This document shows positions 4,181 to 56,093 of a stretch of 64,000 bases of DNA, one piece after another. This DNA is from Pseudonocardia sp. 73-21 (GTDB lineage Bacteria; Actinomycetota; Actinomycetes; Mycobacteriales; Pseudonocardiaceae). Position numbers and translations under genes: made by a program. Each line of letters starts with the position of its first letter. The first letter of the stretch is position 1. The notes beneath the pieces are model-generated. The model saw only the letters and a program-made list of their open reading frames with translations. It had not been told where the DNA came from and searched no databases. Location of the stretch: assembly GCF_001899645.1 (NCBI RefSeq), contig NZ_MKVV01000098.1, forward strand, positions 46,944 to 110,943, read 5' to 3'.

Positions 4181-5467
4181 TCAGGCGCGCGCCGACTGGT
4201 CGTTCGCCGGCACGCCGCGCTCCTCGTCGGCGCCCCAGCCGTCGGCCAGGTGAGCGATCTTCTCGGTGTAGTCGCGGGCGGCCACGGCGGGGTCGTCGGC
4301 GCGACCCGCGGCCACCCCGATCAGGAACGCGGTCATCGGGGCCGCGCCGGCGTCGACCCCGTCGGTGACGCGGGAGGTGAGCTCGGAGATCGTCGTGGCG
4401 CTCGAGTCGTCCTCGGCCGCGGTCTCCAGGCCGAGCTCGAGCGCGACTGTGGTGGTCCATTCGGAGTGGTTCACGGGGTGCGGGTACCCCGGAACGTGTG
4501 GGCCAACCGCTTCTCCGTACCGCCGTTTGGCGGGTCTGCGCGTGGGTAACTCGGCTGTTGACCGGAACCCCGTGCGTTCGCCACCCGCTGCGACACGCAC
4601 GTCCCCGCCGGCCCTGCGGAGGTACGATACTCCGCAGGGCCGTGTCGTACCGGCCTCTCCCACCATCCGCAGGACGTCGCGGGAGGGATCGAACTCGACG
4701 GCCCCCGCCGCGGCCAGCTCGGTCAGCCAGCCGCCCATCGGCCACCAGCCGTGCCTGCGGTGGAACAGCGTCGCGTTGCGCACGATCTCCCCGACGCGGC
4801 GGGGATCGGTGCGGGCGGGCGGATGGTGCTGGTGGTGGGCCTCCGCGCCGCCGACCCAGACGAGCTGCGCCCCGGCCGCCTCGGCGGTGACGGCGAAGTC
4901 GGTGTCCTCCCCGCCGTAGCCGGTGTAGTCCTCGCAGAAGCCGCCGAGCCGCGTCCACGTGGCGGCGGTGACGGCGAACGACAGCGACCAGAACAGGGTG
5001 AAGTCGCCGGTGCGCTCCAGCTGCCCGTCGGGCGGTGCCGGGCGGGCGGGATGGGGGTCGGCGAGCCCGCCGAGCCCGGTGGCGGGGTAGCCGCCGGGCG
5101 GCGGGGGCGGCAGGTAGGCGACGGGCCCGCACAGCAGGGCGAGCTCGTCGCCGGCGGCGCCCGCGTAGCGCCGCACCAGGTTCGGGCCCGGGATGCAGTC
5201 GACGTCGAGCAGGACGAGCAGCTCGGCGCCGGCCGCGATCGCTGCGGCGGCCCCGGCGTTGCGCGCCGCGGCCAGCGGCAGCCCGGTGGCGGGGACGGGA
5301 ACGTGCACGCGGGTCACCGGGGGAGCGCCGGGGATCTGCGCGAGCCGGGGCTGCTCGCCCATCCCGACGACGACGTGAACATCCGACGGGCCGAGCGCCA
5401 GCCCGGCGCGCTGGCGGTGCAGGTGGTCGTCGCGGCCGTGCGTCACGACGACCACGGCGGTCCTCAC
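4181..5467 (-). CDS. Family 2 glycosyltransferase whose frame continues into a DUF6457-like tail (tail may be a separate CDS 4181..4474)
   Basis: VVVVTHGRDDHL, LLVLLDVDCIPGPNLV, LGGFCEDYTGYGGEDTDFAVTAEAAG; C-terminal EWTTTVALELGL...APMTAFLIGVAAGRA. Confidence 0.75.
   Translation of the reverse strand: MRTAVVVVTHGRDDHLHRQRAGLALGPSDVHVVVGMGEQPRLAQIPGAPPVTRVHVPVPATGLPLAAARNAGAAAAIAAGAELLVLLDVDCIPGPNLVRRYAGAAGDELALLCGPVAYLPPPPPGGYPATGLGGLADPHPARPAPPDGQLERTGDFTLFWSLSFAVTAATWTRLGGFCEDYTGYGGEDTDFAVTAEAAGAQLVWVGGAEAHHQHHPPARTDPRRVGEIVRNATLFHRRHGWWPMGGWLTELAAAGAVEFDPSRDVLRMVGEAGTTRPCGVSYLRRAGGDVRVAAGGERTGFRSTAELPTRRPAKRRYGEAVGPHVPGYPHPVNHSEWTTTVALELGLETAAEDDSSATTISELTSRVTDGVDAGAAPMTAFLIGVAAGRADDPAVAARDYTEKIAHLADGWGADEERGVPANDQSARA
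4610..4641. repeat. 12-bp perfect inverted repeat GGCCCTGCGGAG-GTACGATA-CTCCGCAGGGCC inside GT2/DUF6457 reading frame
   Basis: Exact arms, 8-nt loop; loop GTACGA is complementary to TCGTAC at 4645-4650. Confidence 0.85.
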
Positions 5468-6456
5468 CGGGCCGCCAGGTCGTCCAGGACGGCGGCGGCG
5501 CGGGCGGCGCCGTCGCCGGACGACCACTGCGTCCAGCCCTCGCCGCCGCGGGCGACGGCGTCGTCCAGCACGGACGGCCACCTCCCGGCCGCGGGCCAGC
5601 GGGAGCGGCCGACGGCGATGCCCGCCCGGTGCAGGGCCAGGGCGGTGGCGTGCTGCTCGCCGTGGGGCCGGACCTGGCTCACCACGACGGCGGCCCGGCG
5701 GGCGGCGGCCACCTCGGCCACCGCGTTCTGGCCCCCGTGGGTGACGACGACGTCGGCGTCGCACAGGGCCGCCCAGACGTCGTCGCACCAGCCGCGCCAC
5801 CGCAGGTTCGCCGGCCCGGCGCTCTCCTGCGCGGGGCCGACGACCTCCCACGCCCAGTCCGGGGTGGCGGCGGCCGCGGCGCGCAGGTCGTCGGGGGTGA
5901 CGTCGATGCCGCCGGCGCCCCACAGGACGAGCACGCGACGCCGGCCGGGCGGCGGCGGCGGCTCGCGGCCGTCGAAGCGGGAGATCGCCCCGACGTGCAC
6001 GCCCCGGGCCGGCAGCGGCGGGCCTGCGGACGACCAGGGGGCGAGCAGCGTCTCGGCGAGGTCGTAGGCGGTGCGGTGGGGCCGGTCGGTGCGGTCGCCG
6101 GGCTGGGCCATCACCGCGACCGGCAGCCCGGACAGCCGGGCCAGCAGCGTGACCTCCACGGACACGTCGACGACGACCAGCCGCAGCTCCGGCCGGGCGA
6201 GCACGCGGGAGATCAGCGCTGTGCGGTCGCGCAGGCCCGGATGCCCCAGCGGAGCCCAGTGCAGGACGCCGCGGGCGGTCGGGTCCCGGGGAACGGACCC
6301 GTCGACGTCCGGCGGGAGCGGCACCCACTCGCCCGGCCAGCCGTCCGGGGCGGGCAGCGTCGAGAGCCCGACGACCGGTGTCCGCAGCCGCGCCGCGATC
6401 GTCGCGGCCCGGTGGACGTGGCCGCGGCCGTGGTGGTGGACGTACCAGCCGATCAC
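5464..6456 (-). CDS. MurG/GT28-like glycosyltransferase
   Basis: MIGWYVHHHGRGHVHRAATIAARL; CDADVVVTHGGQNAVAEVAAARRAAVVV. Confidence 0.75.
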   Translation of the reverse strand: MIGWYVHHHGRGHVHRAATIAARLRTPVVGLSTLPAPDGWPGEWVPLPPDVDGSVPRDPTARGVLHWAPLGHPGLRDRTALISRVLARPELRLVVVDVSVEVTLLARLSGLPVAVMAQPGDRTDRPHRTAYDLAETLLAPWSSAGPPLPARGVHVGAISRFDGREPPPPPGRRRVLVLWGAGGIDVTPDDLRAAAAATPDWAWEVVGPAQESAGPANLRWRGWCDDVWAALCDADVVVTHGGQNAVAEVAAARRAAVVVSQVRPHGEQHATALALHRAGIAVGRSRWPAAGRWPSVLDDAVARGGEGWTQWSSGDGAARAAAVLDDLAAR

Positions 6457-7505
6457 GCGAGCTCCCGGTAGCGGCGCTCGTAGCCGTCGACCATGGTCTC
6501 GACGGAGCAGGTCCCCACGGCGCGGCGCCGGGCCGCGGCGCGGTCGAGGCGGGCGGCGGCGGTGATGGCCGCGGCGAGGCCGTCGACGTCACCGGGCCGG
6601 GCGAGCACGCCGCACGTGTCGTCGAGCAGCTCCGGCAGCGCGCCGCGGTCGAACCCGGCCACCGGCGTGCCGCAGGCCAGTGCCTCCGCCACGACCAGCC
6701 CGTACGGCTCGTCCCAGCAGGGGGAGATCACGGCCACCGACGCCGAGCCGACCAGGCGCACGAGGTCGGTGTGGTCGAGGTGCCCGACGTGCTCGATCCC
6801 GTCCCCGAGCAGGGGTGCGACCTGCTCGCGGAAGAACCGCGCGTCCGGGGTGGGCCCGGCCAGGCGCAGCCCCGTGCCGGCCCGGCGCGCGGCCAGGATC
6901 GCCTCGACGGGCCCCTTCTCCGGCACGATCCGCCCCGACCACACCGGCACGCCGCCGCCCGGGCCGGGCGTCCAGAACGCGGTGTCGACGCCGTTGGGCA
7001 CCACCGGGGCCTCCACGGTGCCCCGCCACTGGCGGGCGGTGGCGCGGCTGACCGCGGCGAAGGAGGAGGTCCCGGGGGCCAGCGCCACGGCCGACTCCAG
7101 CCACGGCGTCGGGGGCGTGTGCAGGGTGGTCAGCAGGCGGACGGGCAGGGTGTCGGCCATGGCGACGGGCAGGTAGTGCAGCGAGTTGTTGTGCACCACG
7201 TCGTAGTCGCGGCCGGTGCGCGCGAGGTCGAGCATCAGCGACAGGTAGGCGTGGTGCTCGGCGAGGAACCACTCGGCCGGCATGCTGACGTCGGCGCGGG
7301 CGTGCGCGGAGAGCGTCGGCAGGCCGGGCAGCTCCCGCACACCCAGCGCCGGGTCCGAGCCGCGTCCGCCGAACACCGTCACGTGGTGCCCGCGCTCGCG
7401 CAGTTGCGTGGCGAGCTGCCAGGTGTGGGCCTCCAGGCCGCCGGGGAACGGCTGGCGCAGGGGGAAGCGGGCCGACGCGACGAGCGCGACGCGCAACGGG
7501 CTCAC
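6453..7505 (-). CDS. GT4-family glycosyltransferase
   Basis: FPGGLEAHTWQLATQLRERGHHVTVFGG; WSGRIVPEKGPVEAILAARRAG; PYGLVVAEALACGTPVAGFDRGALPELL. Confidence 0.85.
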   Translation of the reverse strand: MSPLRVALVASARFPLRQPFPGGLEAHTWQLATQLRERGHHVTVFGGRGSDPALGVRELPGLPTLSAHARADVSMPAEWFLAEHHAYLSLMLDLARTGRDYDVVHNNSLHYLPVAMADTLPVRLLTTLHTPPTPWLESAVALAPGTSSFAAVSRATARQWRGTVEAPVVPNGVDTAFWTPGPGGGVPVWSGRIVPEKGPVEAILAARRAGTGLRLAGPTPDARFFREQVAPLLGDGIEHVGHLDHTDLVRLVGSASVAVISPCWDEPYGLVVAEALACGTPVAGFDRGALPELLDDTCGVLARPGDVDGLAAAITAAARLDRAAARRRAVGTCSVETMVDGYERRYRELA

Positions 7506-8676: not shown

Positions 8677-9735
8677 GTGACGGTGCCGGTCACGCCTCTC
8701 CGTTCTGCCGCCTGTGTCGATCCCGTCAGGGTCGCCTCCGTCCCCGAGGGCCACGTCTACGTCCGGCACCTGTCGGTCCCCGGGGACGGTGTCGTGCGGC
8801 TGCCCGACCCGCCGGTGCCGGGTGCTCCCGACGGGCAGTGGTGGCCGCCGGTGATGCTCGACCCGGAGTGGGTGCGGGGCAACGCCGACGCGTTCGACGT
8901 GTTCCACCTGCACTTCGGGTTCGACGACCGCAGCCCGCAGCAGCTCGGCGCGCTGGTCGCCGCGCTGCGGGCGGCGGGCCGGCCCCTGGTGCTCACCGTG
9001 CACGACCTGCGCAACCCGCACCACGCCGACCCCGCGGCGCACGCGGCCGCGCTCGACGTGCTGGTGCCCTCGGCCGACGCGCTGCTGACGCTGACGCCCG
9101 GCGCGGCGGCCGAGATCGCGGCGCGGTGGGGGAGAGGCGCGGTGGTGGTGCCGCACCCGCACGTCGTGGAGGCCGACCGGGCGGCCCGGCCCCGCCCGGG
9201 GCACGACGGGTTCGTCGTCGGGGTGCACGCCAAGGCGGACCGGGCCAACAGCGACGCGCCGGCGGTGGTGCGGGCGCTGGCCCCGGTGGTCGCGGCGATC
9301 CCGGGTGGCCGCGTCGAGGTCGTGGTGCGTGACGACGGGCCGGGCCGGGAGCTCGCCTCCGGGCTCCGCGACCTGCCCGCCGTCGACGTGCGGCCGGGAC
9401 CCCGGCTCACCGACGACCAGCTCTGGGACCACCTCTCGGGCCTCGACCTGTCGGTGCTGCCCTACCGCTTCGGCACCCATTCCGGCTGGCTGGAGGCCTG
9501 CCACGACCTCGGCACCGCGGTGCTGGCCCCCGACTGCGGCTTCTACGACCAGCAGGCCCCGTGCCTGATCTACCACCGCGGACCCTCCGGACCCGACGCC
9601 GCGTCGCTGGCCGCCGGGGTGCACGAGGCCCACCGTCGCGGCGCGGGCCCGCGGACCACCGTGGAGGAGCGGGCCGCCCAGCGGTGCGCGGTCGCGGCGG
9701 CCCACGCGGCGATCTACCGGGAGGTGCTCGGATGA
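8677..9735 (+). CDS. GT-B-like glycosyltransferase
   Basis: FDVFHLHFGFDDRSPQQL, LVLTVHDLRNPHHAD, VVVPHPHVVE, LDLSVLPYRFGTHSGWLEACHDLGTAVLAPDCG; overlaps next CDS. Confidence 0.7.
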   Translation: MTVPVTPLRSAACVDPVRVASVPEGHVYVRHLSVPGDGVVRLPDPPVPGAPDGQWWPPVMLDPEWVRGNADAFDVFHLHFGFDDRSPQQLGALVAALRAAGRPLVLTVHDLRNPHHADPAAHAAALDVLVPSADALLTLTPGAAAEIAARWGRGAVVVPHPHVVEADRAARPRPGHDGFVVGVHAKADRANSDAPAVVRALAPVVAAIPGGRVEVVVRDDGPGRELASGLRDLPAVDVRPGPRLTDDQLWDHLSGLDLSVLPYRFGTHSGWLEACHDLGTAVLAPDCGFYDQQAPCLIYHRGPSGPDAASLAAGVHEAHRRGAGPRTTVEERAAQRCAVAAAHAAIYREVLG

Positions 9736-10691
9736 GGGTGCTGGTGCACGCCCCCGGACCGCCCCGGCACGGAGTCGTGCGGCACGCGTGGCTGGTGGCG
9801 CGGCTGGCGGAGGCGCACGGCGCGCGTTCCGCCGTGGGCGCGGCCGACCTCACCCACGTGCAGTTCACCGACGCGCTGTTCGGCCCGGACGTCGCCGCGG
9901 CCGCCACGGCGTTCGAGGTGTGGGCCGCGATGGTCCCGCGACCGCTGGTCGTGACGCTGCACGACGTGCCCGGGGCCGATCCCGACCCGGCCCGGGACGC
10001 CCGCCGCGGCCGCGGGTACGCGCGCGTCGCGGCCGTCGCCGATGCCGTGGTGGTGTCGTCGGAGCACGAGGCCGCGAACCTGGAACGCTCGACGGGGCGC
10101 TCCGCGGCGGTGATCCCGCTGCCGGTGGAGACGCTGCCGACCGGGAGTGCGCCACCGGCGTGGGCGGGGCGGCCCACGCTCGCGGTGCTCGGCTTCGTCT
10201 ACCCCGGCAAGGGCCACGCCGACGCGATCGACGCGGCCGCCCGCAGCGGGATCCCGCTGGTCGCCGCGCTCGGGGCCGTCGCGGACGGGCACGCCGAGCT
10301 GCACCGGGAACTGCGGGAACGCGCCGCGGACCGTGGGGTGGACCTGCTCGTCACCGGATCGCTGACCGACGCCGACCTCGCCGCCGCGGCCGCCGCGGCC
10401 ACCGTGCCCCTCGCCCCCGCCCGCCGGGTCAGCGCGAGCGGGTCGCTGGCGACGTGGATCGGCTGCGGTCGTCGTCCGGTCGCGGCGCGGGGCCCGTACA
10501 CGGCCGAGCTCGCCGCCCGTCATCCTGACGGCCTGTGGCTCTACGACACCGACGCCGAGCTGGACGCCGCCGTGGCAGCATGCCAGGCCGACCCGTCGTG
10601 GACGCGGGCAGAACCCGGTGCCGGCCCGGACGTGGGCCCGGACGTGGGCGCAGCCCACGCCGCCCTCTACCGACGGGTGCTCGCGTGCTGA
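9732..10691 (+). CDS. GT-B-like glycosyltransferase
   Basis: VVTLHDVPG, ADAVVVSSEHEAANL, LAVLGFVYPGKGHADAIDAA; ATGA overlap with upstream gene. Confidence 0.7.
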   Translation: MRVLVHAPGPPRHGVVRHAWLVARLAEAHGARSAVGAADLTHVQFTDALFGPDVAAAATAFEVWAAMVPRPLVVTLHDVPGADPDPARDARRGRGYARVAAVADAVVVSSEHEAANLERSTGRSAAVIPLPVETLPTGSAPPAWAGRPTLAVLGFVYPGKGHADAIDAAARSGIPLVAALGAVADGHAELHRELRERAADRGVDLLVTGSLTDADLAAAAAAATVPLAPARRVSASGSLATWIGCGRRPVAARGPYTAELAARHPDGLWLYDTDAELDAAVAACQADPSWTRAEPGAGPDVGPDVGAAHAALYRRVLAC

Positions 10692-11980
10692 CCGAGGTGT
10701 TCGTGCCGGGCAACCGCTGGGACCTGCTCGCCCCGTACCCCGTGCCCCGGCCGCAGGTGAGCGTGGTGGTCACCCACTACGAGCAGCCCGACCAGCTCGC
10801 CCGGACCTGGGCCGCGCTGTGCGCCCAGACGCTGCCCCCGGCCGAGGTCGTGATCACCGACGACGGTTCGGCCGAGCCGCCGCGGGCGCCCGCCGGCGGA
10901 CCGCCGGTCCGGGTCGTCACCCAGCCCGACCTCGGGTTCCGCGCGGCCGCGGCCCGCAACGCCGGAGCCCGGACCGCCCGCGGCGAGGTCCTGGTCTTCC
11001 TCGACGCCGACACCGTCCCGGGGCCGGGGTTCGTCGAGGCGATGACCCGCCGGGTGGCGGTGTGCCCGGACGTGCTGGCCGTCGGCCGCCGCCGGCACGC
11101 GGACCTCGCCGCCACGCCCGTCGGGAGCGACCCCGCCGCCGCCCCGCCGCTGCCGGACCCGGCGTGGCTCCGGGACGCCTACACCGCGAGCCGTGACCTC
11201 CTCGACGCCGACGGGCGCAGCTTCCGGTTCGTCATCAGCGCCGTGCTGGCGTGCCGGCGCAGCCTGTTCGACGACCTCGGGGGGTTCGACGAGCGGTTCG
11301 TCGGCTACGGCGGCGAGGACTGGGACCTGGCCTACCGCGCCTGGAACGCCGGCGCGGTGCTCGTGCACGAGCCCGACGCCGTGGCCTGGCACGACGGCCC
11401 CGACTGGGCCGGCCGCGACGGCGGGGCCAAGGATCTGGAGTCGGTGCGGCTCGCGGCGCTGGTCCCTGAGCCGGTCACCCGGGGCGTGGCGCTGCCGGGC
11501 GGGTTGCCCGACGTGCTGGTGGACCTCGCGTGCGACGGGGTGCCCGCGACCGTGCGCACCGTGCACGCGCTGCTCGCGCAGGACCACCGCGACCTGCGGG
11601 TCCGGCTGCCCGGCCCGGTCGATCCGCTGCTGGTGCAGCTCTACGGGAGCGCCGTCCAGCAGGACGCGTGGAGCGCGGACCAGCGCCGGCGGGCACGGGC
11701 GGTGCTGACGGCCCGGGCCCCGCTCCCCGCGGGGGCGCTGACCACGGCGATGGGCGCGCTCGTGGACGACGACCTGGCCCGGGTCGTCATCGCGTGCGGG
11801 GGCGACCCGGTCGCCGAGATCGAGTCCACCCGTGCGCGGGGGCGGATCCGCCGGTGGGCCCATCGGCTGCCCGCGGACGTCGTGCGCGGGTCCTTCGGGT
11901 GCGCCGTGGTCGACGCCGGTCCGGCGCCCCGGACGTCCGGGGGCCTCGACGGCTACTTCGCCCGGCTCGCCCGGCCGTGA
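10685..11980 (+). CDS. Family 2 glycosyltransferase
   Basis: QVSVVVTHYEQPDQLARTWAAL, LVFLDADTVPGPGFVEAM, FDERFVGYGGEDWDLAYRAW. Confidence 0.85.
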   Translation: MLTEVFVPGNRWDLLAPYPVPRPQVSVVVTHYEQPDQLARTWAALCAQTLPPAEVVITDDGSAEPPRAPAGGPPVRVVTQPDLGFRAAAARNAGARTARGEVLVFLDADTVPGPGFVEAMTRRVAVCPDVLAVGRRRHADLAATPVGSDPAAAPPLPDPAWLRDAYTASRDLLDADGRSFRFVISAVLACRRSLFDDLGGFDERFVGYGGEDWDLAYRAWNAGAVLVHEPDAVAWHDGPDWAGRDGGAKDLESVRLAALVPEPVTRGVALPGGLPDVLVDLACDGVPATVRTVHALLAQDHRDLRVRLPGPVDPLLVQLYGSAVQQDAWSADQRRRARAVLTARAPLPAGALTTAMGALVDDDLARVVIACGGDPVAEIESTRARGRIRRWAHRLPADVVRGSFGCAVVDAGPAPRTSGGLDGYFARLARP

Positions 11981-12372: not shown

Positions 12373-13101
12373 CTACAGATCCGCGCGGCGGGAGGCGAGG
12401 GTCTCCGCGACCAGGGCCAGCTTGACGTTGAGCGACTGCGACGCCACGCGCAGCACGTCGAAGGCCTCGTCCTCGGTGATGCCGCGACGCTCCATGAGGA
12501 TGCCCTTGGCCTGCCCGATCACGTCCCGGCTGCGCAGGGCCTCCTGCAGCTGGGCCGCCTTGATGGCGTGCGCGCTGTGGGCCTCGGTGGCCGCCAGCGC
12601 CGTGGAGGCGTGGGCCGCCAGCAGCATCGCGGTGTCACGGTCGATGCCGTCGAGGCCGGCCACGGAGAAGGAGTAGAAGTTCAGCGCACCCAGGCGCGGC
12701 TCGGCGCCGTCGGGGAACATGCCCACGGCGAACACGCTGCGCACCCCGGCCTCGGCGGCCTTCGGGCCCCACTCGGGGAACTCGGCGCCCCGCGCCAGGT
12801 CGGAGGAGCCGACGAGGCCGGGGCCCGGGGTGCGGGTGGCCTCCACGCACGGGCCCTCGTCGAGGTCGTACTGCAGGCCGTCGAGCCGCGTGGCGAGCTC
12901 GTCGGTCTCCACCGGGGTGTGGAACCGGCCGTCCGGGGCGCGGACGGTGACGCTGACCATGTCGGCGCCGCGCACCACGGCGCGAGCGGCCTGGACGATG
13001 CGGTCCAGGACCTCGGACACGGTGGTGGCGTCGAGGAGCGCGCGGGCGAGCTCGACGAACTCCGTGGCGACCGCGCCCGGTACGAGGGTTTCAGGGGGCA
13101 C
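12373..13101 (-). CDS. GAF and ANTAR domain regulator (RNA-binding antiterminator type)
   Basis: GAF-like N-terminus; C-terminal ALRSRDVIGQAKGILMERRGITEDEAFDVLRVASQSLNVKLALVAETL. Confidence 0.85.
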   Translation of the reverse strand: MPPETLVPGAVATEFVELARALLDATTVSEVLDRIVQAARAVVRGADMVSVTVRAPDGRFHTPVETDELATRLDGLQYDLDEGPCVEATRTPGPGLVGSSDLARGAEFPEWGPKAAEAGVRSVFAVGMFPDGAEPRLGALNFYSFSVAGLDGIDRDTAMLLAAHASTALAATEAHSAHAIKAAQLQEALRSRDVIGQAKGILMERRGITEDEAFDVLRVASQSLNVKLALVAETLASRRADL

Positions 13102-13130
13102 GGGTGGGAGTGTAGAGAGCCCGGGCCGGC

Positions 13131-13922
13131 TCAGCTGACGTCGATGCGCGCCCGCAGCGTCGCGAGCGTGCTCGCCAGCAGCCGGGAGACGTGCATCTGC
13201 GACAGGCCGACCTTGGCGGCGATCTCGGTCTGGGTGAGGTCGCCGAAGAACCGGAGGATGACGATCGTCCGTTCGCGGTCGGGGAGGTCGGCCAGCGCCC
13301 GGCGCAGCTCGTCGCGGTACTCCGCCTTGACCAGCTCCGCGTCCGCCCGGCCCAGCAGGTCGAGCAGCGAGGTGTCGCCGGAGTGGGTGAGGGCGTCGAG
13401 GGAGTCCGCGGAGTAGGCGCGCTGGGCGCCCAGCGCGTCCACGACCTCGCCGACGGGCACGTCGAGGTGGTCGGCGATCTCGCTGGGACGCGGCGCCCGG
13501 TTGAGCGTGGCCGACAGCGTGGTGACGGCCTCGCCGATCGGCCCCTGCAGATCCTTGAGCCGGCGGGGGACCCGCATCGACCACGTCCGGTCGCGGAAGT
13601 GCTTGCGCACCTCGCCCGTGATCGTCGGGATCGCGAAGCTGAGGAACTCGGCGCCCCGTTCCGGGTCGAACCGCTCGAGCGCCCCGAGCAGGGCGACCGC
13701 CCCGACCTGCTCCAGGTCGTTGGTCGGCTCCCCACGGCCGCTGTAGCGCCGGGCGATGTGGTGCACGACGGGCAGGTAGGCCGTGGCCAGCTCGTCGCGC
13801 AGCACCCGCCGCCGCGGGTCGGAGCGGTCGAGAGCGGCGTACTCGGCGAGCACCGGAGCCAGGTGGTCGTAGCTGTCGCGGCCCGACGTACGCGGGGCAA
13901 CGATGGTCGAAGCGCTGGTCAC
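13131..13922 (-). CDS. SigB/SigF-type RNA polymerase sigma factor
   Basis: NDLEQVGAVALLGALERFDPERGAEFLSFAIPTITGEVRKHFRDRTWSMRVPRRLKDL; LPDRERTIVILRFFGDLTQTEIAAKVGLSQMHVSRLLASTLATLR. Confidence 0.92.
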   Translation of the reverse strand: MTSASTIVAPRTSGRDSYDHLAPVLAEYAALDRSDPRRRVLRDELATAYLPVVHHIARRYSGRGEPTNDLEQVGAVALLGALERFDPERGAEFLSFAIPTITGEVRKHFRDRTWSMRVPRRLKDLQGPIGEAVTTLSATLNRAPRPSEIADHLDVPVGEVVDALGAQRAYSADSLDALTHSGDTSLLDLLGRADAELVKAEYRDELRRALADLPDRERTIVILRFFGDLTQTEIAAKVGLSQMHVSRLLASTLATLRARIDVS

Positions 13923-14069: not shown

Positions 14070-14459
14070 CTATCCGGCGGCCTGCACGTTGGTCCGGATC
14101 TGGTTCAGGGTGTCCTCCAGACCGCGGTCGATGCCCGGACCGTCGGCGTGCTCGGTGTGCAGCGTCACCGTCACGCGCGAGCCGTCGTCGGCGCCCTCGA
14201 CCCGCAGCTCTCCGCTGTAGTGGTTCGGCCCCTCGGACCCCCACCGGATGCTGCGCGCGTCCGCGTCGGTGGTGAACCAGGCCTCGCCCTCGACCTCGCG
14301 GCCGCCGACGTCGGCGACGGTGTGCACCGCGTCGCCGTCGGCGGGTTCGGCGGACTTCATCGCCGAGAAGTAGTGCGGCAGGTTCCCCACGTCCGACAGG
14401 TACGCGAAGAGCGCGTCCGGTCCGGTCGTGACGGTCGTGCTGTGCTCGTACTCACCCAT
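14070..14459 (-). CDS. SRPBCC-family protein
   Basis: STTVTTGPDALFAYLSDVGNLPHYF...SIRWGSEGPNHYSGELRV. Confidence 0.75.
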   Translation of the reverse strand: MGEYEHSTTVTTGPDALFAYLSDVGNLPHYFSAMKSAEPADGDAVHTVADVGGREVEGEAWFTTDADARSIRWGSEGPNHYSGELRVEGADDGSRVTVTLHTEHADGPGIDRGLEDTLNQIRTNVQAAG

Positions 14460-14482
14460 GACGGTCGGGTACCCGGCGCGGC

Positions 14483-14510
14483 CCGGCTCAACCACCGGTG
14501 GTTGAGCCGG
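14483..14510. promoter_or_regulatory. 28-bp perfect palindrome CCGGCTCAACCACC|GGTGGTTGAGCCGG in divergent intergenic region
   Basis: Arms are exact reverse complements with no spacer; lies between the ATG starts at 14459(-) and 14540(+). Confidence 0.8.
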
Positions 14511-14539
14511 CCACCACGGGGCATCCCGGCGGTGTGCCG

Positions 14540-15517
14540 ATGACCCCGCCCGACCACCTGTCCACCGACGTCCCCGTCGACTCCCGGCTCCGGACGCTGC
14601 TGGCGGCGGGGCGTCTGGACCTGCCGCTGCCGGGGGCCGGGCAGACGACGCGCCGCTGGCAGGAGCTCGCCGCGCTCGGTCGCGCCGACCTCGCCCTCGC
14701 CCGGCTCGCGGAGGGGCACACGGACGCGGTGGCGATCCTGGCCGAGGCGGGGCGGCCCGCCGAGCCCGGCACGCTCTACGGGGTGTGGGCGGCGCGGCCC
14801 GGAGGGACGGGCGCCGACCTGCACGGCCCGCGCGGGGGGGAGACGGTGCTGCACGGCACCGTCCGCTTCTGCTCCGGGGCGCACCTCGTCGACCGCGCCC
14901 TGGTGGTCGCCGGTGGCCCCGACGGCCGCGTGCTGGTGGACGTGCCGGTCGAGCCACCGGGCGCCCGGCCCGACCCCGACTCCTGGAACACCCCGGCGAT
15001 GGCGGCCGCGGACACCCTCGACGTGTGGTTCGACCGGGTACCGGTCGGCCGCGACGACGTCGTCGGGGGACCGGGCTGGTACACCGCGCGGCCCGGGTTC
15101 GCCGTCGGCGGGGGCGGGGTCGCCGCCGTGTGGCAGGGCGGGGCGGCCGGTCTGCTGCACCGGGCCGTCACCCACCTGCCCGCCGCGCCGGACGCCCACC
15201 AGCTCGCCCATCTCGGCGAGCTCGACGCGCTGCTCTCCGCGACGGACGCCCAGCTGGACTGGCTGGCGGCCGACGTCGACGCCGACCCCTTCGGCGACCA
15301 CGCGCTGGGGGTGGCCCGGGCGCGGTGCGCCGTCGAGCGGGTGGTGCGCGAGACGCTCGACCGGGTGCCGCGGATGCTCGGGGCCGGCCCGCTGAGCGGG
15401 GACGCCGAGCTGGCCCGGACCCTCGCCGACCTGGGCATCTACGTGCGCCAGCACCACGGCGAGCGCGACCACGCGGCCCTCGGCGCGGCCGTGCTCGCGG
15501 CGGGGGGCGCGTCGTGA
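14540..15517 (+). CDS. Acyl-CoA dehydrogenase-like protein
   Basis: TLDVWFDRVPVGRDDVVGGPGWYTARPGFAVGGGGVAAVWQGGAAGLL; overlaps the PIG-L gene. Confidence 0.65.
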   Translation: MTPPDHLSTDVPVDSRLRTLLAAGRLDLPLPGAGQTTRRWQELAALGRADLALARLAEGHTDAVAILAEAGRPAEPGTLYGVWAARPGGTGADLHGPRGGETVLHGTVRFCSGAHLVDRALVVAGGPDGRVLVDVPVEPPGARPDPDSWNTPAMAAADTLDVWFDRVPVGRDDVVGGPGWYTARPGFAVGGGGVAAVWQGGAAGLLHRAVTHLPAAPDAHQLAHLGELDALLSATDAQLDWLAADVDADPFGDHALGVARARCAVERVVRETLDRVPRMLGAGPLSGDAELARTLADLGIYVRQHHGERDHAALGAAVLAAGGAS

Positions 15518-16782
15518 CGAAACCGGGTGACTGGGCCGACGCCCTCGACCGGCACCGGCCGCCGGCCTTCGACCCGACGGCCCACCGGCGGGTGGTGGTC
15601 GTGGCCGCCCACCCCGACGACGAGACGCTCGGGGCGGGCGGCGCCGTCCGGGCGCTGCACGCGGCCGGGGCGGACCTCTCGCTCGTGGTGGCCACCGACG
15701 GCGAGGCCGCCTACCCCGGTCTGGACACGGCGGCGCGGGCCGGGCTCGGCCGGGCCCGCCGCGTCGAGATGGGCGAAGCGCTGGCCGCCCAGGGCCTGGC
15801 CGGCGTGCCCGTGACCTGGCTGGGCCTGCCCGACTCGGGCCTCGACGCGTGCGGTGACGACCTGCGCGACGCGCTGGTCCCGGTGCTGGCCGGGGCCGAC
15901 GCCTGGCTGGCCCCCTGGTCCGGCGACCCGCACCCCGACCACCGGGCGGCCGGGCTCGCCGCGGCGGCGGCCGCCCCGGTGACCGCGCACGGCTGGTCCT
16001 ACCCGATCTGGATGTGGGCCTGGCTCGCCGCCGACGACCCGGTTGTCCCGTGGGACCGCGCCCGCGCCGTGCTCCTCGACGACGCCGCCCGCGCGGCCCG
16101 GCGCGCCGGGGTGGAGTGCTTCACCTCGCAGGTGCGCCCCGGCCCGGACGGCTCGCCCGCCGTCCTCGCCGCGGGGCTGCTCGACCACGTCGACCGCCCC
16201 GTCGACCTGCTGTTCCGGGAGCCGCGGGCCACGTCGGCGCCCGTCGAACGGTTCGCGTCCCTGTACGCGGAGGGCGACCCCTGGGACACCGGATCCTGGT
16301 ACGAGCAGCGCAAGCGGGCCGTCGTGCTCGCCTCGCTGCCCCGGGCGGGCTACCGGCACGGGTTCGAGCCCGGCTGCGGCGCCGGCGAGCTCAGCGCGGG
16401 TCTCGCCGGGCGCTGCGCCGTGCTCGACTCGTCCGACCCGGTGCCCGAGGCGGTGGAGCGGGCCCGCGCCGCGCGCCCGGGGGCGCGCGTGCAGGTGGCC
16501 GGGCTGCCCGACGGCGTGCCGGACGGGCCGCTCGACCTCGTCGTGTTCAGCGAGGTCCTCTACTACCTCGACGACGCGACCGTCGCGACCACGCTCGACC
16601 GCGTCCTGGCTGCGACGGCCCCCGGCGCCGACGTCGTCGCGGTGCACTGGCGCGGCTGGCCCGCCGAGGCCCCGCGCGACGCCGCGGCCACCCACCGGCT
16701 GCTGACCGCCCGTCCGGAGCTCGACATCCTCGTCGAGCACACGGACGAGGACTTCCTGCTGCACGTGCTGCGTCGCCGGTGA
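15514..16782 (+). CDS. PIG-L/LmbE-type deacetylase fused to NodS-like SAM methyltransferase
   Basis: VVVVAAHPDDETLGAGG and PWSGDPHPDHRAAG (PIG-L); FASLYAEGDPWDTGSWYEQRKRAVVLASLP..GFEPGCGAGELSAGLAGRC (NodS-like MTase). Confidence 0.85.
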   Translation: MTKPGDWADALDRHRPPAFDPTAHRRVVVVAAHPDDETLGAGGAVRALHAAGADLSLVVATDGEAAYPGLDTAARAGLGRARRVEMGEALAAQGLAGVPVTWLGLPDSGLDACGDDLRDALVPVLAGADAWLAPWSGDPHPDHRAAGLAAAAAAPVTAHGWSYPIWMWAWLAADDPVVPWDRARAVLLDDAARAARRAGVECFTSQVRPGPDGSPAVLAAGLLDHVDRPVDLLFREPRATSAPVERFASLYAEGDPWDTGSWYEQRKRAVVLASLPRAGYRHGFEPGCGAGELSAGLAGRCAVLDSSDPVPEAVERARAARPGARVQVAGLPDGVPDGPLDLVVFSEVLYYLDDATVATTLDRVLAATAPGADVVAVHWRGWPAEAPRDAAATHRLLTARPELDILVEHTDEDFLLHVLRRR

Positions 16783-16874
16783 CCGCTCCGCGGGAAGGGC
16801 CGCCGGTGACCGCTCCGCGGGAAGGGCCGCCGGTGACCGCTCCGCGGGCAGGGCCGCCGGTGACCGCTCCGCAC
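16779..16874 (+). repeat. 27-bp tandem repeat (3 full units plus a partial unit) at GT2 start, each unit containing a GTG start
   Basis: GTGACCGCTCCGCGGGAAGGGCCGCCG at 16779, 16806, 16833 (one change) and partial at 16860; encodes VTAPREGPP repeats. Confidence 0.95.
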
Positions 16875-17651
16875 GCGGTGGCCGTCGTGATCCCGGCCCG
16901 GGACGAGGAGGATGCGATCGAGGCCTGCCTGCTCAGCGTCCGGGAGTCGCTGCGGCACCTGCCGCCGACGGTCGAGACGGTCCTGACCGTGGTGCTCGAC
17001 CGCTGCGTGGACGACACCCCGGCCCTGGTGGACGCCCTCACCGCGGACTGGCCGGGGGCGGCGTCGCTGCGGGTGCTCGGTGCGGGGGAGCGCCGGGTCG
17101 CCGGGCTCGGGGACGGGAGCGGACCGGCCCACATCGTGGGCGGATCGGGCGTGGGCGCGCTGCGCGACCTCGGCGTCCGCGACGCGCTCGACCGCCTGCG
17201 GCACCTGCCGCCCGGGGCGGTGTGGCTGCTGCACACCGACGCGGACACGACCGTCCCGCCGAACTGGGCGACGGCCCACGTCGAGCTGGCCGCCGCCGGG
17301 GCCGCCGGCGTCGCGGGCACGGTCGAGCTGACCGACGGCCTGTCGTCCTGGGCCGCACGGCGCCACGAGCAGCTGGTGGTGGCCGGTACCGATGGCGACG
17401 CGCATCACCACGTCTACGGCGCCAACCTCGGGGTCCGGGCCGACGCCCACCTCGCCGTGGGCGGCTTCCCCGTCGACGGGGCCGGGGAGGACCACGGCCT
17501 GTGGCAGGCCCTGGGCGCCGCGGGATACCCGTTGCGCCGGCCGTCGGGGCTGCGGGTGCGGACCAGCTCACGCACCTGCGGGCGGGCGAGCGGCGGGCTC
17601 GCGGACCTCCTGCGCGACCTGCACGCGGCGGGGCGGGCCGGCGGGCTGTAG
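16779..17651 (+). CDS. Family 2 glycosyltransferase
   Basis: VAVVIPARDEEDAIEACLLSV, VWLLHTDADTTVPPNW, VYGANLGVRADAHLAVGGFP..GEDHGLWQAL. Confidence 0.85.
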   Translation: MTAPREGPPVTAPREGPPVTAPRAGPPVTAPHAVAVVIPARDEEDAIEACLLSVRESLRHLPPTVETVLTVVLDRCVDDTPALVDALTADWPGAASLRVLGAGERRVAGLGDGSGPAHIVGGSGVGALRDLGVRDALDRLRHLPPGAVWLLHTDADTTVPPNWATAHVELAAAGAAGVAGTVELTDGLSSWAARRHEQLVVAGTDGDAHHHVYGANLGVRADAHLAVGGFPVDGAGEDHGLWQALGAAGYPLRRPSGLRVRTSSRTCGRASGGLADLLRDLHAAGRAGGL

Positions 17652-20036: not shown

Positions 20037-20155
20037 GGCTCCCCCTGGGGTGTCGGCCACCCACCGTCGTCGCCGTCCCCGGTGCACCGGCAGTGGCCGA
20101 CGACCCGGCAAACCGGGCTGAGTGGCCCGTCGTGGCCCGGGCCGACCGGCGGTCC

Positions 20156-20169
20156 GGGTCTTGTGGCCC
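20156..20169. promoter_or_regulatory. GGGNC-N4-GNCCC dyad (GGGTCTTGTGGCCC) between divergent DUF4389 and USP genes
   Basis: Pattern seen in sequence, about 82 bp before the USP ATG. Confidence 0.5.
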
Positions 20170-20250
20170 CCGGGAGAGGGACCTGAGCCGCTGCCGCGGG
20201 CCGTCGTGAGCGCGCAGCGTGGGGGTCCGGCACCGACGAAGGGGAACGCG

Positions 20251-21150
20251 ATGGACGCGCACGACATCAGGCGCACGGTGGTCGTCGGGGTCGACGGCTC
20301 GGAGGACTCCCTGCGGGCGGTCCGCTGGGGCGCGGCCGAGGCCGGGCGGCGCCACATCCCGCTCCGCCTGGTGCACGCCTTCGGATGGGGCCAGAGCGAC
20401 GTGGTCGGACACCCCGAACTGGGACATCGCTACCGCGACACCCTGCTGGCCCACGCCCGCGACCAGCTCCACCGCGCGGCCCAGGTGGCCGAGGAGCGGA
20501 CGCCGGGCGTCGACGTCGAGGAGCAGCTGGTGGTGGGCGCGCCCATGGCCGTGCTCGGCGACGAGAGCCGCCGTGCGCAGGTGCTCGTGCTCGGCGACCG
20601 GGGCCTCGGCCGGCTCCAGGGGCTGCTGCTGGGCTCGGTCGCCGCGGCGCTGGGGGCGCACGCGGCGTGCCCGGTCGTGGTGGTGCGCGGGTCCGAGCGG
20701 GACCCGGCCGACATCGCGGCCCTGCCGGTGGTCGTCGGCGTGGACGCCTCGGCCACGAGCGACGCCGCCGTCGCGTTCGCGTTCGAGACGGCCGCGGCGC
20801 TGCGGGTGTCCCTCGTCGCGGTGCACAGCTGGTGGGAGCCGGTGTTCGACCCGGCCCTCTCGTCCATGATCTTCGACTGGGACGCCATCCAGGCCTCCGA
20901 GGCCGAGCTGCTCGAGCAGCGGCTGGCCGAGTGGACCGCGAAGTACCCCGAGGTCTTCGTCGAACGCCACGCCGTCCGCGACCACCCGGCCCACGGGCTG
21001 CTCGAGCAGGCGGCGCAGGCCCAGCTCGTGGTGGTCGGCTCGCGCGGACGGGGCGGGTTCTCGTCGCTCGTGCTCGGCTCGGTCGGCCACGCGCTGCTGC
21101 ACCGCTCGCCGTGCCCGGTCGCGATCGTCCGGCCGGACGCCGAACGGTGA
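20251..21150 (+). CDS. Tandem universal stress protein (two UspA domains)
   Basis: VVVGVDGSEDSLRAVRWGAAEA...; second VVVGVDASATSDAAVAFAFE...LVVVGSRGRGGFSSLVLGSVGHALLHRSPCPVAIVR. Confidence 0.93.
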   Translation: MDAHDIRRTVVVGVDGSEDSLRAVRWGAAEAGRRHIPLRLVHAFGWGQSDVVGHPELGHRYRDTLLAHARDQLHRAAQVAEERTPGVDVEEQLVVGAPMAVLGDESRRAQVLVLGDRGLGRLQGLLLGSVAAALGAHAACPVVVVRGSERDPADIAALPVVVGVDASATSDAAVAFAFETAAALRVSLVAVHSWWEPVFDPALSSMIFDWDAIQASEAELLEQRLAEWTAKYPEVFVERHAVRDHPAHGLLEQAAQAQLVVVGSRGRGGFSSLVLGSVGHALLHRSPCPVAIVRPDAER

Positions 21151-23628: not shown

Positions 23629-26394
23629 TCAGTGCACAAGGCCCCGAACGGACGGGCCGGAACGCCGCCGGGCCCACCGGACGATCTCGTCCGCACCCCA
23701 TACGACGAACGGGAACGGCACGACGACGGCGAGCTGCGACGGGTCGAGCGCGGCGGTGCCGAACACGTCCTGCAGCCACGGCACGTAGACCACCGCCGCG
23801 CTGAACACCAGCTCGAACGCGATGCCCCACAACAGCAGCGGATTGGACCCCAGCCCGATCGAGAACAGCGACGCGCGGTCGGTGCGCGCCGCGAACGCCG
23901 TGCCGATCTGGCAGGCGACGATGCCGACGAACGTGATCGTGGTGGCCTGCAGGTAGGCCCCGTGCAGCGGGTTGCCCGCTCCGGTCGCGTCGCCGGGCTG
24001 CCAGCCGGCGCGCACCAGGGTGAGCAGGAAGCCGCCCATGACGAGTGCCGCCGACACGGTGCCCAGCAGCAACCAGGCCCGCACCAGCAGGGCCCGGTCG
24101 ACCACGCCCGCCGAGCGGGGCCGGGGCGGTCGTTCCATCGCGCCCGGTTCGGCGGGTTCGCGGCCCAGCGCCAGAGCGGGCAGCGTCTCGGTGCCGAGGT
24201 CGATCGCCAGGATCTGCAGCACCGTCAGCGGCAGCGGAACCGCGCCGCCGGTCAGCGCGAAGACCAGGAACGGCACGACCTCGGGCACGGCGTGGGCGAA
24301 GATGTAGAGCACGAACTTGCGGACGTTGTCGAACACCTGCCGGCCGGAGCTGACCGCGGCCACGATGGTGGCGAAGTCGTCGTCGGTGAGCACCATCGTC
24401 GCGGCCTCCCGGGCCACGTCGGTGCCGGAGCGGCCCATGGCCACCCCGATGTCGGCGTGCCGCAGCGCGGGCGCGTCGTTGACGCCGTCACCGGTCATCG
24501 CGACGATCGCGCCGCCGGCCTGCAGCGCCTCGCAGATCCGCAGCTTCGACTCCGGGGAGGTGCGGGCGAAGACGATCTCCTCGTCCCGAGCCAGGAGGGC
24601 GTCGAGCTCGGCGTCACCGAGGCGGTCCAGCTCCTCGCCGGTGACGACCCGGCCGCTCCCGATCCCGACCCGGCGGCCGATCTCCACCGCCGTCGGGCCG
24701 TAGTCGCCGGTGACGACGTGGACGCGGATGCCCGCACGGTGGGCCCGGGCCACGGCGTCGGGCACGGCGGCACGGGGCGGGTCGACCATCGCCACCAGGC
24801 CGAGCAGCTCCAGGTCGCGTTCGGCGTCGGTCCGGTCGGGCGGGACGGCGTCGACCGCGCGGCGGGCCACGGCGAGCACCCGGAGCCCGCTCGCGGCGTA
24901 GCGGTCCAGCGTCCGCGCGACCTCGCCGCACGTCGCGTCGTCGAGCGGGACCGGGCCGTCCGTCCGGTGGATGCTCGTGCAGCAGGGGAGCACGGCCTCG
25001 GGTGCGCCCTTCGTGTGCAGCACACCGTGATCCAACGTGGACATGCGCTTGAGGTGGGCGTCGAAGTGGAACACGGTTCGACGCGCGGCCGCCCGCTCCG
25101 CCGGGGTCACGCCGACGCCGAGGTCGGTGGCCAGGCGCAGCAGCGCCAGCTCGGTGGGGTCGCCGATCGCCGGGGCCTCGGCCGTCGTGCACGCGGCCGC
25201 GGCGGTGGTCAGCAGGCGGGCTCCCTCGTCGTCGGGCGCCGCCGTCGCGTCCATCTCACCACCGGCGAGCCACAGCGTGGTGACGCGCATCCGGTTCTCG
25301 GTCAGCGTCCCGGTCTTGTCCGTGCAGATCACGGTGACCGAGCCGAGCGTCTCCACGGCCGAGAGCCGCTTGACGACGGCGCCCCTGCGGGCGAGCTGCC
25401 GCACCCCGGAGGCCAGGGCGAGGGTGATGGTCGGTAGCAGGCCCTCGGGCACGTTGGCGACGATCAACCCGATCGAGAACGTGATCGCCGCGGCCCAGCC
25501 GAGCCCGGCCGCGATCCCGACGGGCACGAACGCCACCCCGACCAGCACCGCGACGGCGGCGATGATCCAGGTGACCCGCCGGACCTGGCGCTCCAGTGGG
25601 CTGGGCCGCGCGCGTCCCCGCTGCGACAGTGTCGCGATCCGGCCCAGCTCCGTGTGCATGCCGGTCCGGGTGACCACGGTGGTCGCCTCGCCGCCCGTGC
25701 AGGTGGTGCCGCTGAACACGAGGTCCCGGGCCTCCAGCAGCGACCCCGTCACGGGCGCCGGATCGGCCGACCGGGTCGTCGGGACGGACTCCCCGGTGAG
25801 CGCGGACAGGTCCACCGTGAGCGCGCCGTCGATGATCCGGGCGTCGGCGCAGACGCGGTCGCCCTCGGTGAGCACCAGCACGTCGCCGGGGACGAGAGCG
25901 GCGGCCTCGATCTCGACGCGCACCCCGTCGCGCACCACCCGGGCGGTCGGCGGCAGGAACGCCGCCAGCGCGTCGACGGCCCGTTCGGCCTGCCGCTCCT
26001 GGACGAACGCGAACGCGGCGTTGAGGACGATCACCGCGACGACCGCGAGCGACAGAGAAGGGGTGCCGCCCACCCAGGCCAGCACGGCGGCCACCGCCAG
26101 CAGCAGCACGAGCGGCTGGGTGAACTGCGCCAGCAGTTCCCGCGGCCAGCTCGGCCCGCCGCGTCGGGTCAGCGTGTTGGGCCCGTGAACGGCCAGCCGA
26201 CGCACGGCCTCGCGCCCGGCCAGTCCGTCCGGTGACGTGCGGAGGTCACGGTAGAGCTCGGCGAGCGGACCGCGCTGGTCGGCGGACCCGGCGTCGTCGG
26301 GCGCCGGCGCCTCGACGGTGCGGGTCACGGCGCGCTCGCGACATCGGTGCTCAACGGGGCTCCTCGGGTCGGGTACCCCGACGATGACGCGCAC
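23629..26394 (-). CDS. Cation-transporting P-type ATPase (P2-type, CtpF/PacL-like); alternative start 26328
   Basis: [43 protein letters not shown] motifs. Confidence 0.93.
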
Positions 26395-54764: not shown

Positions 54765-55951
<1,187 letters not shown>

Positions 55952-55961
<10 letters not shown>

Positions 55962-56047
55962 GCCTCCCGCGCATCGGCGCCGCGGGGGCGTGAGCCTCCC
56001 GCGCATCGGCGCCGCGGGGGCGTGAGCCTCCCGCGCATCGATGCCGC
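55952..56047 (+). repeat. Three 32-bp tandem repeats beginning within the metK stop region (fourth partial)
   Basis: GGGGGCGTGAGCCTCCCGCGCATCGGCGCCGC at 55952, 55984, 56016 and partial at 56048; each can fold GCGGGGGC-GTGA-GCC(T)CCCGC. Confidence 0.95.
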
Positions 56048-56093
56048 GGGGGCGTGAGCCGCCGAGCCGGTCGGACGGCTCTGGACAACGACG

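Follow-up and report, generated by a model that had tools for sequence, protein, structure and literature searches.

Pseudonocardia sp. 73-21 carries three closely packed genes whose products combine a flavoprotein, a deacetylase joined to a methyltransferase, and a glycosyltransferase. Which pathway do these enzymes serve, and what might it make? The locus lies in a window of 64,000 nucleotides (the whole stretch of DNA that was analysed) within contig C98 of a 7.09-Mb genome. On the plus strand, an acyl-CoA dehydrogenase (ACAD)-fold flavoprotein, a fusion of a PIG-L deacetylase with a NodS-like methyltransferase and a soluble family 2 glycosyltransferase (GT2) follow each other head to tail (Table 1). 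The tight overlap that a first-pass annotation had described at 15514 and 16779 is real, both junctions being GTGA stop/start overlaps. The three genes of that annotation are likewise real, while its interval of 14483-16782 ends with the fusion gene, so that the GT2 gene, which runs to 17651, lies almost wholly beyond it.

We propose, with about even confidence, that these genes form one stress-associated biosynthetic cassette, in which a HexNAc is placed onto a soluble acceptor and then deacetylated, N-methylated and probably oxidised at the amine.

Table 1. Features of the window discussed in the text
Feature	Position	Strand	Remarks
Second GT2, homologue of the seven-gene cluster	4187..5467	-	233 bits; C-terminal DUF6457, PF20058 50.8 bits
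GT28-like glycosyltransferase, homologue of the seven-gene cluster	5467..6456	-	440 bits, profile includes it; Glyco_tran_28_C 23.7 bits
GT4, homologue of that in the seven-gene cluster	6456..7505	-	494 bits to linked-GT4 profile that includes it
Three further glycosyltransferases: GT4-like, GT4-like, GT2 resembling MftF	8701..11980	+	Candidate members only
GAF-ANTAR regulator	12373..13110	-	PF03861, PF13185
SigF-type stress sigma factor	13134..13922	-	NCBIfam SigBFG 255 bits
SRPBCC/Polyketide_cyc2 protein	14073..14459	-	Divergent neighbour of ACAD gene
24-bp perfect palindrome GGCTCAACCACCGGTGGTTGAGCC	14485..14508		Between divergent SRPBCC and ACAD genes
ACAD-fold flavoprotein, group-D flavin-monooxygenase-like, 325 aa	14540..15517	+	ORF opens with GTG 14498
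PIG-L deacetylase half of fusion	15514..16258	+	PF02585 84 bits; zinc motif AHPDDE, HPDH intact
NodS-like SAM methyltransferase half of fusion	16259..16782	+	Boundary between domains approximate
27-bp tandem repeat, 3.7 copies, near-perfect units	16774..16872	+	5' end of GT2 gene
GT2 glycosyltransferase, soluble	16779..17651	+	PF00535; TDADT (DxD) and GED motifs conserved
Universal-stress-type protein	20122-21150		Judged from sequence

Enzymes of the cassette

By itself, the window flavoprotein matches no Pfam family at E 0.1. Its assignment rests on a family profile of 36 members, which gives 76 bits to DszC, and on an AlphaFold model (pLDDT 83) that matches ACAD-fold structures. The fold was confirmed on this predicted model (Foldseek E 1e-11 to 1e-13, TMq about 0.7-0.8), where the nearest structures were TdsC/DszC, ColB1, MsuC and KijD3, with TdsC first by fold. 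Among PDB sequences, the profile ranked DszC first, followed by type-2 ACADs (69 bits), TdsC and MsuC (62-63), KijD3 (58) and nitrososynthases (51), and most classical dehydrogenases did not exceed 54 bits. We take H92, S163 and W205 to be active-site residues of DszC. In the alignment of the 36 members, the Ser of the DszC CSG motif (S163, counted along the alignment) is conserved in 35 and a Trp stands at the aligned W205 position in 30, while the H92 position is occupied by Arg or Lys. Since H92 is not conserved, the reaction may differ from that of DszC. The position of MCAD Glu376 is His or Ser in the family (placed by eye; the HMM alignments end just before 376), and at position 254, the base of isovaleryl-CoA dehydrogenase (IVD), likewise placed by eye, the alignment has no conserved Glu. 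Of the flavoprotein-like ACAD described previously the fold stands, and the protein resembles flavin monooxygenases more than true acyl-CoA dehydrogenases. Tentatively, we read the protein as an oxygenase of the KijD3/DszC kind that would use reduced flavin, which is the weakest step of our proposal. A possible reductase, a Pyr_redox FAD oxidoreductase, adjoins the methyltransferase in 14 of 16 Rubrobacter-type loci. In Deinococcus, the ACAD protein (L175 9684-12023, L131 9557-11920) is extended at its N terminus by about 430 aa, for which no credible Pfam match was found.

The fusion of PIG-L to a NodS-like methyltransferase, already seen in the first-pass annotation, is borne out by Pfam matches to PIG-L (84 bits), Methyltransf_11 (30 bits) and NodS (PF05401, 25.8 bits, just above the cut-off of 24). 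The zinc motif of the deacetylase, with HPDDE and D-x-H-x-D-H, is invariant in 14 of 14 sequences. Against solved structures, the PIG-L profile scored highest with diacetylchitobiose deacetylase (82 bits), then with BshB1 (GlcNAc-malate, 66) and MshB (GlcNAc-inositol, 52); glycopeptide-antibiotic glucosaminyl deacetylases came below MshB, with a few unnamed proteins in between. The named deacetylases act on N-acylated glucosamine compounds. The window protein reaches 25-34 bits with the NCBIfam equivalogs of MshB and BshB, far from their cut-offs of 182-224.

In 16 loci, all of Rubrobacteraceae, PIG-L is absent and a CE4 polysaccharide deacetylase of the NodB family (PF01522, 91-92 bits) stands upstream of the ACAD gene instead. 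The annotated plasmid of Rubrobacter indicoceani has this arrangement, with polysaccharide deacetylase, ACAD, SAM methyltransferase, FAD oxidoreductase and glycosyltransferase. A search of the Rubrobacter CE4 protein for a signal-peptide-like hydrophobic stretch found none, so the enzyme is probably cytosolic, like NodB. Because two unrelated deacetylases fill the same slot, which is the best evidence on this point, deacetylation seems to be a required step of the pathway. The exchange also gives independent support to the earlier logic of deacetylation followed by N-methylation; an uncharacterised pathway that unites a deacetylase, a NodS-like N-methyltransferase and a glycosyltransferase is supported as well. 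For PIG-L and CE4 alike the activity is well supported; the substrate, an N-acetylated amino sugar, we infer. Some loci (L099, L117 and L121) have no recognisable deacetylase nearby.

The methyltransferase half carries a glycine-rich SAM motif. Its family profile matched 4isc, an unnamed structure, with 206 bits and NodS (3ofj) with 78 bits, and phosphoethanolamine N-methyltransferases were also among the matches. With the NCBIfam NodS equivalog it scores 43.4 bits against a cut-off of 300, and we call it NodS-like rather than NodS; by its relatives, it would N-methylate an amine. The fusion with PIG-L was found in ten of the loci examined, mostly actinobacterial. In D. radiodurans, a helicase gene lies between PIG-L and methyltransferase. 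Of all parts of the cassette, the pair of ACAD and methyltransferase varies least. In L117 and L121 the two adjoin, with no recognisable PIG-L or GT2 nearby.

The GT2 (Glycos_transf_2, 29 bits) has a GT-A model, with PcManGT and WrtF as the nearest structures. A sequence-based check found no convincing membrane segment in any of the cassette enzymes. In extended loci, a GT4, a GT28-like glycosyltransferase and another GT2 are added, and in Novosphingobium resinovorum all seven genes form one overlapping series that follows a catalase gene. For the seven-gene loci, the product could be a larger glycan that is exported. The minus strand of the window encodes homologues of the three additional genes (7505-4187), at a distance of about 7 kb from the ACAD gene; the linked-GT4 comparison covered L116, L122, L126 and the Novosphingobium locus L177. 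The second GT2 of the window shows an unusual pairing with a C-terminal DUF6457.

Conservation and genomic neighbourhood

When the fusion protein was used for a scan, the set was recovered in Pseudonocardia; Comamonas, Delftia and Giesbergeria have it too, there with the genes separate but overlapping. The ACAD profile (E < 1e-20) had matches in 49 of 397 actinobacterial and 33 of 399 pseudomonadotal genomes. The gene neighbourhood was then compared between 71 loci from Actinomycetota and Pseudomonadota, retrieved solely through homology to the ACAD, and 40 control stretches of 17 kb at arbitrary positions, many from the same genomes. This comparison, which the first-pass annotation had put forward as a check, supports the grouping: the methyltransferase was present in 66 of the 71 loci, the GT2 in 58 and PIG-L in 46, and each in 0 of 40 controls. 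All four genes lie within 6 kb in 41 loci. The grouping is far beyond chance. Moreover, seven gene orders occur among the 39 loci with all four genes close by, and such variety speaks for a functional link, not for an inherited order. The seven other PIG-L genes of the host genome, viewed in loci of 3.4 kb, have no relatives of ACAD, methyltransferase or GT2 adjoining them.

According to named records, the cassette is carried by plasmids or megaplasmids in Acinetobacter, Pandoraea, Roseomonas, Deinococcus (including D. radiodurans), Bradyrhizobium, Legionella, Kitasatospora, Novosphingobium, Paracoccus and Roseivivax. An Acinetobacter baumannii record of 4 Mb, deposited as a plasmid, has it as well, beside a BLUF-type ORF that we take to be blsA.

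Stress genes were found near the cassette in 26 of 71 loci and in 1 of 40 controls. The classes counted were OtsA/B, large catalase, SigF, topoisomerase IB, GAF-ANTAR, TreYZ/GlgX/MalQ and Ku. The pooled enrichment (p 1.5e-5) is overstated, as the classes were picked after inspecting the loci and related loci are not independent; single classes are mostly not significant against the 40 controls, and only the pooled set is clearly so. In the window, a SigF-type sigma factor, a GAF-ANTAR regulator and a universal-stress-type protein lie near the cassette. An ORF resembling cation-transporting P-type ATPases (23629-26394, minus strand), judged from its sequence only, is also close to the stress-type genes. 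The Novosphingobium operon of seven genes is accompanied by catalase, and Ku/LigD are near the Bradyrhizobium cassette.

Among the named stress islands, that of the A. haemolyticus plasmid pAhaemAN4d (L180) is the clearest, with catalase, DUF421, a haem-oxygenase-like diiron protein, DUF2171, the cassette, an MFS transporter, OtsA and OtsB. Catalase, the candidate DtpC-like diiron protein, the cassette and OtsAB thus lie within 15 kb, which recalls the Acinetobacter desiccation factors DtpC-KatE and OtsAB. In A. baumannii, KatE and DtpC, the latter a haem-oxygenase-like diiron protein, have been tested and are desiccation factors (PMC13232832). IS elements surround this stress island of pAhaemAN4d. 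The cassette neighbour A1S_2230 was considered as a cassette gene and rejected, as it is a DUF2171 protein instead. From its neighbours, a role of the cassette in stress survival may be inferred.

Proposed pathway, rival readings and known systems

Our data show, at the level of sequence, that four predicted activities, a GT-A glycosyltransferase, a zinc N-deacetylase, a SAM methyltransferase and an ACAD-fold flavoprotein, travel together across distant bacteria, often near stress genes. In the pathway that we propose, the cytosolic GT2 would transfer an N-acetylated amino sugar to a soluble acceptor, with UDP-GlcNAc as the likeliest donor. PIG-L, or the CE4 enzyme in Rubrobacter, would remove the acetyl group, and the NodS-like enzyme would methylate the freed amine. 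As a monooxygenase of the DszC/KijD3 type that uses reduced flavin, the flavoprotein may then oxidise that nitrogen or a neighbouring position. Both this order of steps and the product, presumably a small modified amino-sugar glycoside for surviving drying or oxidants that extra glycosyltransferases extend in some species, are predictions. As a more specific and speculative version, which we consider a long shot, Deinococcus, Rubrobacter, Acinetobacter, Pseudonocardia, Comamonas and many others would share, partly via plasmids, a protectant made under stress, namely an amino-sugar glycoside that is both N-methylated and N-oxidised (effectively a sugar amine-oxide or nitrone serving as osmolyte or radical trap).

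A soluble product is favoured because the cassette enzymes have no membrane segments and export genes are not constant around them. The same observations argue against the cell-wall glycan or glycolipid suggested by the first-pass annotation, for which no constant lipid-carrier transferase, flippase, ABC exporter or acyltransferase was seen. In that case, the GT2 would add HexNAc to a lipid- or wall-bound acceptor, and deacetylation and N-methylation would take place on the inner face before export of the modified surface glycan or glycolipid. The four glycosyltransferases of the seven-gene version, the UDP-galactopyranose mutase and GT1 near a Deinococcus locus and the resemblance of the GT2 model to O-antigen and teichoic-acid glycosyltransferases are consistent with such a role, but the four-gene cassette stands alone on Acinetobacter and Pandoraea plasmids, and we regard the surface glycan as possible but rather unlikely. 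The flavoprotein might also be a true dehydrogenase acting on the acyl chain of a lipo-oligosaccharide-like product, comparable to Nod factors, with the methyltransferase acting on an N-acylated amino sugar. The ACAD fold, the Nod-like set of deacetylase, NodS and GT2 and the NodB-family CE4 in Rubrobacter would fit this idea. It is improbable in our view, given the monooxygenases among the top sequence matches, the apparent replacement of Glu376 and apparent lack of the isovaleryl-CoA dehydrogenase base (both positions set by eye), and the lack of a constant NodA-type acyltransferase, acyl carrier or thioesterase.

Catalase and other oxidant-defence genes as neighbours, together with a PIG-L that resembles BshB and MshB, could hint at a relative of mycothiol or bacillithiol (a low-molecular-weight thiol or redox buffer), for which a glycosyltransferase adds GlcNAc, PIG-L deacetylates it and the amine is then modified. 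Yet the annotated loci examined contain no MshC/BshC-type cysteine ligase, a methylated amine could not accept cysteine in the normal way, and MshA and BshA belong to GT4, while the cassette enzyme is a GT2; this makes a thiol very improbable. We give even less weight to the notion that the genes are mere neighbours from separate pathways in a gene-rich stress island. Certain loci indeed have just two or three of the four genes, but overlapping start and stop codons, the PIG-L/methyltransferase fusion, the seven shuffled orders and the spread over distant phyla all speak for a common function.

The proposed cassette pathway shares features with several known systems. Nod-factor synthesis (NodC GT2, NodB CE4, NodS) has the same logical order of activities, the cassette methyltransferase belongs to the NodS superfamily, and the Rubrobacter cassette even uses a NodB-family CE4. 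Unlike NodC, a membrane chitin synthase, the cassette GT2 is small and soluble; PIG-L is used in most species, a flavoprotein is added, and stress genes rather than symbiosis genes are found nearby. In agreement with the first-pass annotation, no sulfotransferase or chitin synthase was seen among the genes examined around the cassette, nor was a NodA acyltransferase in the annotated loci. Mycothiol and bacillithiol synthesis likewise employs a PIG-L enzyme (MshB, BshB) to deacetylate a GlcNAc glycoside made by a glycosyltransferase, but with a GT4 and a cysteine ligase, whereas the cassette has an added methyltransferase and flavoprotein. With the amino-sugar N-oxygenases KijD3, DnmZ and ORF36 and the flavin monooxygenases DszC/TdsC, the flavoprotein shares the ACAD fold, and its top sequence matches are of this kind; a Ser and a Trp align with those of the flavin site in most family members. 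It differs from them in its length of 325 aa versus about 400-440 and in the loss of DszC H92, and it reaches 14.3 bits with the DszC NCBIfam equivalog, whose cut-off is 850.

The first-pass annotation had recognised no described product. Our search of the literature, with subscription journals largely outside its reach, also found neither a description of the cassette nor a product, and the cassette is not described in PMC6181384, PMC13232832, PMC12647597, PMC10325922, PMC8987720, PMC6330354 or PMC5563000. The enzyme families are known, while their combination, range and stress setting appear to be new. The cassette is retained in organisms noted for their survival of drying, radiation or oxidants (Rubrobacter, Deinococcus, Acinetobacter), frequently with catalase, trehalose and DNA-repair genes next to it, and mobilizable plasmids of clinical Acinetobacter carry it as well. 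If a protectant is made, it would be a survival metabolite common to distant bacterial phyla that has so far been overlooked, and its enzymes would join Nod-factor-type amino-sugar chemistry to flavin N-oxidation. With only four genes, the cassette is small enough for expression in E. coli K-12 and direct identification of its product.

Start regions and repeats

The palindrome GGCTCAACCACCGGTGGTTGAGCC between the divergent SRPBCC and ACAD genes is a candidate operator or hairpin. As GTG 14498 sits within it, ATG 14540 is the likelier start of the ACAD gene. A conserved operator was considered and rejected: the palindrome is present in a single copy in the whole genome and is absent upstream in L009 and L010, and therefore no regulon can be derived from it. 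On the minus strand, positions 14470-14493 match a SigF-like promoter pattern (GGTT-N-GGGTA), which is placed upstream of SRPBCC, not of ACAD.

Each 27-bp unit of the tandem repeat in the GT2 gene has a purine stretch of the GGAAGGG or GGCAGGG type about 6 bases before the next GTG. The start region of GT2 itself thus seems to be duplicated, which might allow a variable start or variable expression. A further tandem repeat of the window, with 3.6 copies of a 32-bp unit and 97% match, is located at 55947-56060.
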